This document shows, piece by piece, positions 55,113 through 59,360 of a DNA stretch of 64,000 nt. How positions within the stretch are numbered: the first letter of the stretch is position 1; each line of letters begins with the position of its first letter. Under the pieces are notes generated by a model, which was not told where the DNA came from, did no database searches, and saw only the letters and a list, made by a program, of their open reading frames with translations. This DNA is from Bacteroidota bacterium (GTDB lineage Bacteria; Bacteroidota; Ignavibacteria; UBA10030; SZUA-254). The position numbers and the translations under genes were made by a program. Location: NCBI GenBank assembly GCA_020056225.1, contig JAGVIE010000044.1, forward strand, positions 1-64,000, given 5' to 3'.

Positions 55113-55125
55113 AACATGGGAACCA

Positions 55126-55239
55126 TGTCATTCCCGAATGCTCCTACCGGCCTGCCTGCGTGCCGCTACAGCAGGCAGGAAATCCAGAGCTTAGTTAATC
55201 TGAGGACTGGACTCCCGCTAAAAACTTGCGGGAGTGACA
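55126..55239. repeat. Palindromic intergenic repeat
   Basis: Fills much of the roughly 300-bp gap between the epimerase and TIR genes. Outer arms TGTCATTCCCG (55126-55136) and CGGGAGTGACA (55229-55239) pair with one mismatch; inside are CCTGCCTGC (55151-55159) / GCAGGCAGG (55171-55179), perfect, and ACTCCCGC (55211-55218) / GCGGGAGT (55228-55235), perfect. No gene is seen in the rest of the gap. Confidence 0.75.
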
Positions 55240-55415
55240 GTTTGGAGTTTTTTTGACTTTCATCCGACCAAGCTTTATATTCATTACGTTATGTAGACTG
55301 ATTATGGCCGATAGGAATGGAATAAACGAAATTCGTTAATCCACAAGTTAAACGCCATTTAAACTAATTGTTTGACGCACTAAGTACAATATTGAACAAG
55401 ACAGGGATGAGACTC

Positions 55416-56510
55416 ATGGATATAAGGAAGCTCAAAGTTTTCATTTCATATTCGCACAAGGATGAGCGGCTCAAACGTCTATTAGAAAAACACCTTAGCG
55501 TTCTCCAGAAAAACATCTCAATTGAATATTGGAGTGATAAAAATATACTACCAGGAGAGAATTGGGAAAATATGATCAGCGAAAAGCTAGAAGCCGCCGA
55601 CATAATTCTTCTTTTGGTTAGTGCTAACTTTCTTTCATCGGATTATTGTTACAATGTTGAATTACAACGTGCGATAGATCGGCATCAGGCTGGCAAAGTT
55701 ACAATGATACCGATTATCCTAGAACCTGTCTACTGGAATGAACTTGATATAAGCAAATTACAAGCCTTACCCACTGGTGCAATTCCAATTTCGAAATGGA
55801 ATAATAAGCACGAGGCCTGCGCCAATGTAACGAAAGGTATTCGAGACGCCGTGATTACATCGGCCGATGTATTAGCAAGGAACAACATAGAAGATGAGAG
55901 CCGAAGAGCTCTTTGGCGAGTCAAACGAATTACATCATCGAGGCTAAAACTAAAGAGAAACATTGATCCGCGTTTGAACTCAAACATTAAAAAAGGTAGT
56001 GCAACAACATCACAAAACGAAAATAAGCACACGAAAATTCAACTTGAGGTTGCCGGCCTAACAACACACTCACCGCACTTATCCTTGAGTTCAATAATGC
56101 CTGCTCTGAGCTCACAAGTCTATTTACTTACTTTTAAGGAAATCAACGGCACTAGAACCTTGAATATACCTATTGGGTATGTAGAAGCACAGGCCATTGC
56201 ACTTCATTTAGAGGGGATCAAACCACCCAGACCACTAACACATGATCTCATTAAATCTTTTATTTCAGAGTTTCAAGCAACGATAACAGAGATCGTAATC
56301 TCGAAGTTCGAGAATGCAGTGTTTTGCTCGACAATCTTTTGTACACTAAACAGAAAAAAACTTAAAATTGATTCCAGAACATCCGACGCAGTAGCCATAG
56401 CTATTCGTTTGAACGTCCCAATTTTTGTTCATGCCGACATCCTGCAAGAAATGAACTCAACAATAGCTTTTCCACTTGTTCCGACCGAAGAGGTTGTAAT
56501 ACATAAATAG
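55416..56510 (+). CDS. TIR - DUF151 (bifunctional nuclease) fusion protein
   Basis: A 364-residue cytosolic fusion; no signal peptide. Residues 5-125 are a TIR domain: KVFISYSHKDERLKRLLEKHL, IEYWSDKNILPGENW, AADIILLLVSANFLSSDYCYN, with Glu82 in VELQRAI at the place of the NAD-cleaving glutamate, then VTMIPIILEPVYW. After a basic, weakly ordered linker (150-205), residues 207-350 match DUF151 (BFN): PIGYVEAQAIALHLEG, PPRPLTHDLIKSF (about 270-282) and DSRTSDAVAIAIRLNVPIFV (319-338). TIR domains often cleave NAD or make cyclic-ADP-ribose signals in phage defence; BFN proteins have been reported as nucleases. Start ATG 55416 has AGGG 10 bp upstream; a longer frame opens at TTG 55368. Codon use is more AT-rich than neighbours and the gene lies between repeats, so it is probably acquired. 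No partner gene is evident. Confidence 0.82.
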   Translation: MDIRKLKVFISYSHKDERLKRLLEKHLSVLQKNISIEYWSDKNILPGENWENMISEKLEAADIILLLVSANFLSSDYCYNVELQRAIDRHQAGKVTMIPIILEPVYWNELDISKLQALPTGAIPISKWNNKHEACANVTKGIRDAVITSADVLARNNIEDESRRALWRVKRITSSRLKLKRNIDPRLNSNIKKGSATTSQNENKHTKIQLEVAGLTTHSPHLSLSSIMPALSSQVYLLTFKEINGTRTLNIPIGYVEAQAIALHLEGIKPPRPLTHDLIKSFISEFQATITEIVISKFENAVFCSTIFCTLNRKKLKIDSRTSDAVAIAIRLNVPIFVHADILQEMNSTIAFPLVPTEEVVIHK

Positions 56511-56637
56511 GTCTAACAAATAACTAGCGCAAACATTATCGAAGCATCGACAAATTTGTTCTATACATCGTTTCTAATTCAGGTTAGAGTTTCTCTCTTT
56601 TCATTGCACTCACAACTAAATCATTTAGCTTCAGATG

Positions 56638-56706
56638 TTATATTAATCCCGACGGCAACCTCGGCGATGAAATCAATTTCTTAAACTCTTTCCACCTATT
56701 TTAGGT
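56638..56706 (-). pseudogene. Remnant of a DUF885 peptidase gene 3' end
   Basis: Reverse-strand reading gives RWKEFKKLISSPRLPSGLI then a TAA stop, almost the same as the C terminus RWEEFKKLISSPRLPSGLV of the intact peptidase gene at 57633-58877. Similarity at the base level begins near 56706, 3 bp before the stop of the META lipoprotein gene. It is a leftover of a duplicated gene end, too short for a protein. Confidence 0.8.
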
Positions 56707-56708
56707 AG

Positions 56709-57545
56709 CTAATCTTCTAAATTAAACGAGTAGAATCTACCATCCGAAATACGTGTCAATGTCAGAGTAGAACTGATTGTAGAATAATTAGTCGCAGTTA
56801 ACAAATCCTCGATGAGGTCTCTTGACATTCTTTCAGCGGAGGGTGGAGTACCGATGCACGATGGAGTATACCCCCTGTCATAAATGAATATTGAATTATT
56901 TATTCCAATCCCGAAATAAATTGAATTATACGTACAGTCGTATTCTGTGTTTGGAACAGTGTTGATCTTTCGGATCGTCAACATACGTTCACCGGAGAGT
57001 TTTATTTTAAAAATATAACCAACAGATTCAAGATAAGAATATCTATCATCGTTGGTAGCAGTAAGCTTCCAAACTTTATTCGTGAAAGTAGAGCCCGACA
57101 GTGAACGAGTGTAATAGCTCGTAAATTTAAAGGTAGTATCATTTTTGAAGAGCGTGAAAGAAGTATCGGTAAGATTGAAATTCCATGAATTTATTAACAT
57201 ATATGGGTTATAATTAATCCACTGGGGACAACCCACCTCTGTGTGTCCCATTCCAACAATATTAAAATATCTACTCTCGATTATAAACTTACCGTCGAAC
57301 CAATTGCATCCGTCATATCCAAAAACTGCTGTATCATTTAACAAAAGTGTATATCCGTCGTAAAAATGAGAAATCAAAGAACTATCGCCTGCAGTTGCAC
57401 TTTTCAAAATCCAAGGAACATTTTTAAAGCGATTGATAAGCTCAATACCTGATTGAGGGGAGATGGTTTCGACCGATGAATCTTTGCAGGAAAACATACT
57501 CCCAAGTATAATAGCAAATGTTAGAAAACCAAATGTTTTTTTCAT
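56709..57545 (-). CDS. META-domain lipoprotein
   Basis: 278 residues from ATG 57545, which has an excellent ribosome site (GGAGGTTTCT before ATG); an in-frame start 12 bp earlier is unlikely. Residues 1-18 are a lipoprotein signal with lipobox SMFSC. The mature part resembles the HslJ/META fold: a strand pair with FGYDGCNWFDGKF and a cluster VGCPQW, and a second, weaker copy starting WKLTATNDD and YDCTYNS. META proteins are surface proteins of uncertain role. It sits between an intact DUF885 gene and a remnant of that gene's end, so it probably came in by recombination. Confidence 0.72.
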   Translation of the reverse strand: MKKTFGFLTFAIILGSMFSCKDSSVETISPQSGIELINRFKNVPWILKSATAGDSSLISHFYDGYTLLLNDTAVFGYDGCNWFDGKFIIESRYFNIVGMGHTEVGCPQWINYNPYMLINSWNFNLTDTSFTLFKNDTTFKFTSYYTRSLSGSTFTNKVWKLTATNDDRYSYLESVGYIFKIKLSGERMLTIRKINTVPNTEYDCTYNSIYFGIGINNSIFIYDRGYTPSCIGTPPSAERMSRDLIEDLLTATNYSTISSTLTLTRISDGRFYSFNLED

Positions 57546-57632
57546 AGAAACCTCCAAACGTTTGTAATTTTATTGTATCAAGTTATTGATTTTTCACATC
57601 AATATCAAGACATTCTTCATTTCTGAAATGCT

Positions 57633-58877
57633 TTATACTAACCCCGACGGCAACCTCGGTGATGATATCAACTTTTTAAACTCTTCCCATCTTTTCTGAG
57701 GTTTGTCTGGTGTGCCGCCACGCTTCTCGATATACTGCTTCACCAAATCCTGTCCGAGATTATAGTTAATCACATAACTGCGGTAAGTATCAAAAAAGCG
57801 TGTGCGCTGTTGCGCGCGATCGGGTGACATAAGCGCATACTTCACAAGCCACTCCGCCGCTTCATCGCGAGTCATTGTGCCGTTTAGGTAGCCGCGGGCG
57901 GCTTCGTTGCCTGCGTATGCTAATTTCAGGAACAACTCATGCACCTTGTAATATTTTTCTGCCTTGCTTGCATCCATGCCAGCAAGCGGGAAAAGCACTT
58001 TCTTCTCGAATTCAATCCGCTCGTTTCCTGGGAACACTACTTCAATCCCGAAGTTTGCCGTCCCTTCGGCAATCAATGATTGCGGACTGAACAAAGCATA
58101 AACCGATGCCTCCACCCATCCATATTTTTTGTAGAGAATACTTTCAAGCAAAGAGTTATACACATGATGTCCGGGATAACCCTCGTGTGCGGCAAGATCA
58201 ACTGCACGGTCGATGTAAATCGGCAGGTCGGTGTTCATCTGAATCAAACTAAACCCGTTACCTTTAAACCAGTTGTAGCCGCTCCAGGGTTTGTTGTTAA
58301 CATATTCGATAGTAAAGCTCTCGTTTGTGGGAAGCTCGATATATTCCTTGGTGCGTTTGCGGCATTCTTTAATTGCGGTCTGAAACACTGCATCGAGTTT
58401 GTCTTTTGGAATGATGAACTCTTTTTTAAATTCATCGTACCGCGCGCTGATGGAGCCGGAACCGGGCAAGAGTGAATCCATTTCAGAAAGAATTTTCTGA
58501 AAATGGCTTTCGGGATATTTTGGCGGGTCGGCATCATAAAGTGCCTGAGCTTCTTCGTCAAATGAAAATTTCTTCCCCTGCAGCATTTCAACATGAGCGA
58601 GAAGCGATTGCAATTGTTTAAGGAGGTACTGATGTCGCAGTTGTATTATTTCCTCTGCCGTTTTTGTATCCAACCTCTTTAGTTCTTCAATGGATGTTAA
58701 TGTATCTTTCTTAATTATATCAAGCGGTTTATTTTCCGATTTGACCTTTACTAATATTTCTGGATCACCGAAATACGCATCGACATAGCTTTCGTCGTGC
58801 TGACCGACGGAGAGAACGAGCTTAACGTATGCTTCAGCGATGTGGTCGAGAGTATGTAGTATCTGAATAGATGGCAT
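57633..58877 (-). CDS. DUF885-type zinc peptidase
   Basis: A 414-residue metallopeptidase. The active-site signature is HEGYPGHH with His231, Glu232 and His237-238, and a downstream Glu271 in SLIAEGTANF, typical of DUF885. There is no signal peptide, so it appears cytoplasmic, unlike many exported DUF885 proteins, and it is shorter than the ~580-residue classical members. The substrate is unknown. A copy of its final 20 codons lies about 0.9 kb downstream, on the other side of a META lipoprotein gene. Confidence 0.85.
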   Translation of the reverse strand: MPSIQILHTLDHIAEAYVKLVLSVGQHDESYVDAYFGDPEILVKVKSENKPLDIIKKDTLTSIEELKRLDTKTAEEIIQLRHQYLLKQLQSLLAHVEMLQGKKFSFDEEAQALYDADPPKYPESHFQKILSEMDSLLPGSGSISARYDEFKKEFIIPKDKLDAVFQTAIKECRKRTKEYIELPTNESFTIEYVNNKPWSGYNWFKGNGFSLIQMNTDLPIYIDRAVDLAAHEGYPGHHVYNSLLESILYKKYGWVEASVYALFSPQSLIAEGTANFGIEVVFPGNERIEFEKKVLFPLAGMDASKAEKYYKVHELFLKLAYAGNEAARGYLNGTMTRDEAAEWLVKYALMSPDRAQQRTRFFDTYRSYVINYNLGQDLVKQYIEKRGGTPDKPQKRWEEFKKLISSPRLPSGLV

Positions 58878-58910: not shown

Positions 58911-58995
58911 ACCCTCTCCCCCTGTCTCAGTATTGACTTATTTCCCCTCTCCCGAATCGGGAGAGGGGATGTCACGAAGTGACAGAGGAGAGGGT
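58911..58995. repeat. Nested palindrome at the 3' end of the DUF559 gene
   Basis: Outer arms ACCCTCTCC (58911-58919) and GGAGAGGGT (58987-58995); inner hairpin CCCCTCTCCCG-AAT-CGGGAGAGGGG (58944-58968), perfect 11-bp stem; and GTCAC-GAA-GTGAC (58971-58983). It ends at the DUF559 stop codon. Confidence 0.85.
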
Positions 58996-59360
58996 CAATA
59001 CCTAAACTTTAAAATCTTCTTTATTATATTTTCAATATTATTAATGACTTCATCATTTTTTATTCTTAATATTTTATATCCACATGATTCAAGCTCTTCA
59101 AATCTTGCCTCATCATATTCCTTTTGAATTGTTTCGTCATGAATACCACCTTCCAATTCAACAATGAGATTCAATTCACCACAAAAGAAATCAACGATAT
59201 ATCTTCCAACATGATGCTGACGTTTAAACTTTAATCCACCAAGTTGATGTCGGCGTAATCGTTCCCATAAAATCTTCTCTGGAATTGTGGATCTCTTACG
59301 CAACAGCCGCGCAACATCGATAATATAATGTGGATACGCAGACATAATATTGTTTAACAT
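58995..59360 (-). CDS. DUF559 endonuclease-like protein
   Basis: 121 residues of the Vsr/PD-(D/E)XK-like DUF559 family. Characteristic are TIPEKILWERLRRHQLGGLKFKRQHHVGRYIVDFFC (RRQ/KFKRQ and VDF segments), LIVELEGGIHDE with the acidic pair and His, and the closing YKILRIKNDEVINNIENII. The catalytic-type Glu28, Asp57 and Glu68 are present. The start may be Met1 or Met6. The gene is closely bracketed by GC-rich palindromes of a shared sequence (58944-58968 and 59361-59384), so it looks like a mobile cassette rather than part of an operon. The function in cells is unknown. Confidence 0.88.
   Translation of the reverse strand: MLNNIMSAYPHYIIDVARLLRKRSTIPEKILWERLRRHQLGGLKFKRQHHVGRYIVDFFCGELNLIVELEGGIHDETIQKEYDEARFEELESCGYKILRIKNDEVINNIENIIKKILKFRY

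Follow-up and report, generated by a model that had tools for sequence, protein, structure and literature searches.

The window, i.e. the whole stretch of 64,000 nt that was analysed, contains a single gene that joins an N-terminal TIR domain to a C-terminal BFN (DUF151) domain (Table 1). The frame starts with ATG and is uninterrupted over its 364 codons. Profile matches, predicted folds and the retained catalytic positions leave no doubt about either domain. Pfam TIR_2 (PF13676) covers residues 8–116 with E=1e-16, and BFN_dom (PF02577) matches the core of the C-terminal part with E=1.7e-33; both scores are far over the curated cut-offs. The homology to BFN proteins starts at about residue 207, where KIQLEVAGL in the fusion corresponds to KVQVDILGL in the resident BFN of the same genome. 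Therefore, the whole BFN core is attached to the TIR part. At the junction neither ATG nor GTG nor TTG is present where a free BFN protein would begin, so the locus represents one fused gene and not two overlapping ones. The gene lies inside a 143-kb contig of a near-complete genome (estimated completeness 100 %, contamination 0.8 %), and together with the missing start codon this argues against both overlapping genes and an assembly join.

Table 1. Positions of the fusion gene, its domains and selected residues, and the flanking repeats in the window.
Feature	Position	Strand	Basis
TIR-BFN fusion gene, 364 aa	55416..56510	+	open frame with translation; Pfam TIR_2 and BFN_dom
TIR domain, residues 6–146, similar to the ThsB model (PADLOC PDLC00420)	55431..55853	+	Pfam, PADLOC, AlphaFold, Foldseek
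Codon of E82, putative catalytic glutamate (= Cat1 E74)	55659..55661	+	invariance in 72 TIRs, Cat1 alignment, PMC12162218
Linker, residues 147–206, predicted long helix to ~182	55854..56033	+	AlphaFold, helix 131–182
BFN/DUF151 domain, residues 207–352 (Pfam core 240–348)	56034..56471	+	Pfam, alignment, Foldseek match to TM0160
T275-H276 (= TM0160 Thr57-His58), proposed active-site residues	56238..56243	+	alignment
D324 (= TM0160 Asp115), proposed active-site residue	56385..56387	+	alignment
Palindromic intergenic repeats upstream of the fusion gene	55130..55255		sequence; RNA fold z-score
Partial copy of the 3' end of the downstream peptidase-like gene	56638..56700		other copy 57633–57695, 86 % identical

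Both halves of the protein were modelled separately with AlphaFold. With an alignment of relatives as input, the N-terminal half is predicted as a TIR fold (mean pLDDT 87), and its best structural matches by Foldseek are plant TIRs, AbTir, SARM1, SPARTA and Cat1. The last TIR helix runs on into the linker as a single long helix. For Cat1 the active site comprises S7, H8, N9, N10, D33, S68 and E74 (PMC12162218). In a HMMER alignment S7, D33, S68 and E74 correspond to S11, D41, S75 and E82 of the fusion, and the position of N10 is taken by H14. E82 is invariant across the aligned TIR proteins (72/72). With profile, fold, catalytic glutamate and companion residues all found, the NADase-type active site looks intact, in accordance with the initial annotation, which had described an intact TIR domain with the glutamate at position 82 kept.

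The C-terminal half is predicted to adopt the BFN fold (mean pLDDT 84) and is best matched by TM0160 (Foldseek E 3e-12, TM 0.82 by target). The active site proposed for TM0160, as quoted in PMC7249048, consists of Asp115, His58 and Thr57 of the partner monomer. All three are found in the fusion, next to the PF02577 match and the TM0160-like fold, and judged from the alignment the proposed active site looks intact. The motifs EAQAIALHLEG, PPRPLTHDL and DSRTSDAVAIA, which had been pointed out before, are present, and 31 of the 39 positions that are at least 95 % conserved in 41 BFN proteins are kept. The profile search and the structure prediction, suggested in the initial annotation as checks of a TIR domain fused to DUF151, both confirm its domain assignment.

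Among the matches listed, relatives of the TIR half with 40–54 % identity occur in Cyanobacteria, Chloroflexota, Acidobacteria, Proteobacteria and Bacteroidota. Their TIR domains are fused to different partners, namely LRR-Roc-COR, AAA_35, TPR, CHAT, FGE-sulfatase and GUN4. Several relatives exhibit the same plan as the fusion, in which an N-terminal TIR is followed by a helical stretch of about 60 residues and by one small C-terminal domain, namely GUN4, Clp_N or iSTAND. In Nostoc proteins the tetrapyrrole-binding GUN4 domain replaces BFN after the linker (L092:5986-7128, L104:3440-4675, L117:5986-7197), Nostoc sp. CMAA1605 carries two Clp_N repeats, a copy of the Clp chaperone N-domain, at this position (L069:5986-7002), and the TIR-iSTAND protein (L123) follows the same plan. 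GUN4, Clp_N and BFN are alike in being domains of housekeeping proteins. GUN4 in such proteins was proposed to act as cell-state sensor and allosteric regulator of the attached enzyme (PMC7159879). Since varied domains follow a similar linker in the TIR relatives, BFN looks like the occupant of an apparently swappable sensor slot on a reusable TIR-plus-helix chassis. The ThsB model of PADLOC (PDLC00420) is matched by residues 7–181 with E=6.6e-44, covering model positions 3–179 of 319.

Other TIR proteins were also observed. The source genome encodes an LRR-Roc-COR-TIR (ROCO) protein whose TIR shares 48 % identity with the TIR of the fusion (L163). In a relative of the same family (G006) a TIR protein (L005:1012-2604) has a C-terminal part that by eye resembles Mrr-type restriction endonucleases and is unnamed by Pfam.

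BFN was found in each of the sampled Bacteroidota genomes (296/296), and in 293 of them as a single copy. The three genomes with two copies are the source genome, G420 and G535. In the latter two the extra copy stands alone (L158, L159). One of these two genomes has the rare motif variant DSRTSDA in common with the fusion. The source genome retains a normal resident BFN-UVR gene, which leaves the fused copy free to take on another role. The fused domain shows less than 50 % identity to the resident BFN, lacks its C-terminal UVR motif and contains an insertion of about 10 residues near 216–233, which is absent from the aligned relatives. In a tree of 42 BFN domains it groups with its own class, with the exact placement being unsure, and its branch is by far the longest (6.6 vs a median of 0.22). 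We infer from this pattern that the duplicate has come under a different type of constraint. In plastids, DUF151-UVR proteins associate with, and are trapped by, the ClpC1 chaperone CLPC1 (PMC8889267). Considered together with the TIR-Clp_N relative, this link may go beyond chance, with one example known from each side.

With a GC content of 0.36–0.42 compared to about 0.43–0.46 outside, the fusion gene is indeed richer in AT than its surroundings, as stated in the initial annotation. The palindromic repeats mentioned there belong to an upstream stretch (55113–55415) that folds strongly (RNA fold z −5.1); a search for known structured RNAs gave none in the window. Upstream neighbours are the genes of a methylmalonyl-CoA mutase and of a glyoxalase-family protein, likely an epimerase, and downstream a gene for a DUF885-like peptidase is found. 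The gene remnant noticed earlier could be assigned as a 63-nt copy of the 3' end of this peptidase-like gene. A dispersed genome-wide element was considered for this tail repeat and ruled out, as the genome contains two copies and both are located here. A lipoprotein-like gene (56709–57557), with a weak META-domain match and no match to a defence or phage family, separates the tail repeat from the peptidase gene. A small gene of DUF559/Vsr-like endonuclease type (58995–59360) occurs also in G011 and is absent from G010.

In the relatives G009, G010 and G011 the glyoxalase-family protein is 90–96 % identical and is followed by different genes (L180, L181, L182). As cargo we observed a 212-aa protein plus DUF2442, a 348-aa TPR/TonB-like protein and, in one relative, an AAA_21 OLD-like ATPase that is similar to several models of defence ATPases. 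The peptidase gene then follows the cargo in G010 and G011; the contig of G009 stops before that point. Extra partial copies of the peptidase 3' end flank the cargo in the source genome as well as in G010, which suggests repeated insertion at the 3' end of the peptidase gene in the spot 55113–57700. Since relatives carry unrelated cargo at the same site, the fusion gene occupies what is, as judged from these genome comparisons, a variable accessory spot between conserved genes. The view of a stand-alone accessory gene thus holds for the location, but not for the company expected of a defence gene: among the genes tested with PADLOC, no defence genes flank the fusion for about 12 kb on each side, and PADLOC gave only weak similarities, of RmuC and of a DUF559-like protein. 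The near neighbourhood is housekeeping and is not a defence island, so that no defence neighbour supports the function.

The search for a second TIR-BFN protein was negative in about 1,100 genomes (about 690 Bacteroidota and about 430 others, mostly Cyanobacteria). The full protein was searched against 15 genomes of the family, all 98 genomes of the order and samples of 391 and 395 genomes from class and phylum; further genomes were 50 TIR-rich ones from other groups and 386 from the phylum of the cyanobacterium G690. Each match in these genomes is confined to the TIR or to the BFN part, and only the gene in the window spans both. With tblastn no place covering 80 % of the fusion was found in 72,556 plasmid and 50,697 phage records, and full-protein scans for close relatives in genome contigs and viral contigs gave no match. 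The TIR profile detected 12 TIR loci in viral contigs, none of them with a BFN part, and the BFN profile had no match in these contigs. In the literature searched, a pairing of TIR with DUF151 or a bifunctional nuclease domain was not found, and the titles and abstracts covered by a broader search contained no TIR-BFN fusion. The initial annotation, for which no such fusion was known, is in agreement with this result. The TIR architecture is of a known kind, and the combination of TIR with BFN is new within it.

We propose that this one gene encodes a self-contained TIR protein, acting as effector or signal generator and gated by its C-terminal BFN domain, and estimate the probability of this reading at roughly 0.5. 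The scheme that follows is inferred with regard to the activity of the enzyme, the sensing role, the trigger and the outcome in defence. The BFN domain, which has diverged from the universal BFN protein after duplication, would dimerise and bind a ligand linked to invasion or stress, which could be a nucleic acid, a nucleotide or a phage protein. In the latter case, the ligand would be a protein that attacks or copies the housekeeping BFN, and the fused domain would serve as an integrated decoy. Binding would be relayed through the long helical linker and would join the TIR domains. TIR active sites generally require contact between two TIRs, as was shown for Cat1 (PMC12162218). In the fusion, such a contact would complete the NAD-cleaving site and result in NAD+ depletion or an ADP-ribose signal. 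TM0160 and Rv1829 dimerise via their DUF151 domain (PMC7249048), so the BFN part would also pair the TIRs: a BFN dimer joined by helices to two TIR domains could keep them apart or bring them together depending on the BFN ligand. The kept TIR catalytic positions, the partner swapping, the sensor role proposed for GUN4, the duplication of a BFN that is nearly always single-copy, its long branch with retained core residues, the dimerisation of BFN homologues and the accessory spot, which in one relative holds the OLD-like ATPase, support a gated TIR effector. Its occurrence in one genome, and consequently the lack of a cross-species conservation that would show the joined protein to be maintained, speak against it, as does the absence of flanking defence genes.

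The intact BFN catalytic triad would be equally expected if BFN were an active nuclease, which counts against gating. BFN would then be the effector itself, i.e. a DNase or RNase that TIR oligomerisation releases or assembles, or that is supplied with the TIR product. All three active-site residues proposed for TM0160 are kept, and plant DUF151 proteins were reported as bifunctional nucleases in vitro; however, these reports concern plant members, and even the same source calls the molecular function of DUF151 unknown (PMC7249048). The partners of the close TIR relatives are mostly non-nucleases and a universal housekeeping protein makes an implausible toxin, so that we consider an effector role of BFN unlikely. 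BFN as sensor or decoy appears favoured over BFN as second effector because of the partner swapping in the TIR subfamily and because BFN is a universal single-copy protein. For these reasons, the coupling to nuclease action raised in the initial annotation is less supported than sensing by BFN, whereas its candidate single-gene defence or signalling protein stands. Its observations proved correct in all points that were checked.

The housekeeping neighbours would also agree with a regulator outside defence, in which the TIR acts as protein-interaction or NAD-dependent signalling module and tunes the pathway of the housekeeping BFN, e.g. by formation of mixed dimers. The dimerisation of BFN homologues (PMC7249048) points in this direction, and a link to proteostasis is possible from the association with CLPC1 (PMC8889267) and the TIR-Clp_N protein of the TIR subfamily. 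Such a regulator is nevertheless improbable in view of the variable accessory spot and the intact TIR catalytic residues, and the far divergence from the resident copy argues against mixed dimers. A recent chance fusion, or a decaying gene without a function of its own, could explain the occurrence in one genome among those searched and the very long BFN branch. In contrast, the 364 codons are free of stops, the domains are full length with kept catalytic residues, both halves give high-confidence predicted folds and most of the highly conserved BFN positions (31/39) persist despite about 50 % divergence; a chance or decaying fusion is thus very unlikely.

Plants build immune receptors with integrated decoys, a concept that was derived from plant NLRs. 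A narrower form of the BFN-gated TIR effector would be a bacterial immune protein of this type, in which BFN is the bait and a phage factor acting against BFN or a Clp-linked pathway would trigger NAD-based abortive infection. We know of no phage factor that targets BFN, and regard this form as rather doubtful. A duplicate of a host protein is found on a candidate immune effector, the genome containing a second BFN and the original, intact BFN-UVR. The decoy reading agrees with the duplication, with the retention of the resident copy, with the rapid divergence around a conserved core and with the accessory site. In that case the TIR-Clp_N and TIR-GUN4 relatives would follow the same modular principle and act as additional baits or as sensors of status. 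BFN/DUF151 occurs in every sampled Bacteroidota genome, and what it does at the molecular level is not settled. A TIR coupled to a BFN copy would be a probe of BFN binding, since the trigger of the TIR would be a ligand or an attacker of BFN. It would also show whether bacteria assemble immune receptors by joining duplicated core proteins to a reusable TIR-plus-helix chassis.

Compared to known systems, the fusion shares the N-terminal TIR (40–54 % identical), the helical linker and a single C-terminal domain with the TIR-GUN4, -Clp_N, -iSTAND, -CHAT and -FGE proteins, which occur mostly in Cyanobacteria. The C-terminal domain of those proteins likewise derives in some cases from a housekeeping protein or domain, but BFN/DUF151 is absent from all of them. 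With the housekeeping BFN/DUF151 proteins (TM0160, Rv1829 and the Bacteroidota BFN-UVR) the fold and the proposed active-site residues are common; unlike these, the fusion has a TIR domain, the insertion of about 10 residues and the longest branch, and it lacks the UVR motif of the resident copy. Similar to the ThsB-type TIR of Thoeris (PDLC00420), the fusion exhibits the same catalytic residues, and its TIR and part of the linker match this model. BFN, however, replaces the C-terminal half, and a relative with a full ThsB-like C-terminus scores E=1.6e-117. No gene for the Thoeris partner ThsA (SIR2-SLOG or other) was found within about 12 kb upstream and 17 kb downstream of the fusion. Cat1, the CARF-TIR effector of type III CRISPR, differs in its sensor, which is a CARF domain for cyclic oligoadenylate, and the fusion is located outside a CRISPR context. 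The TIR active-site positions S7, D33, S68 and E74 of Cat1 are kept in the fusion, and in both a TIR is joined to a dimerising sensor domain, which for BFN would be the role proposed here.
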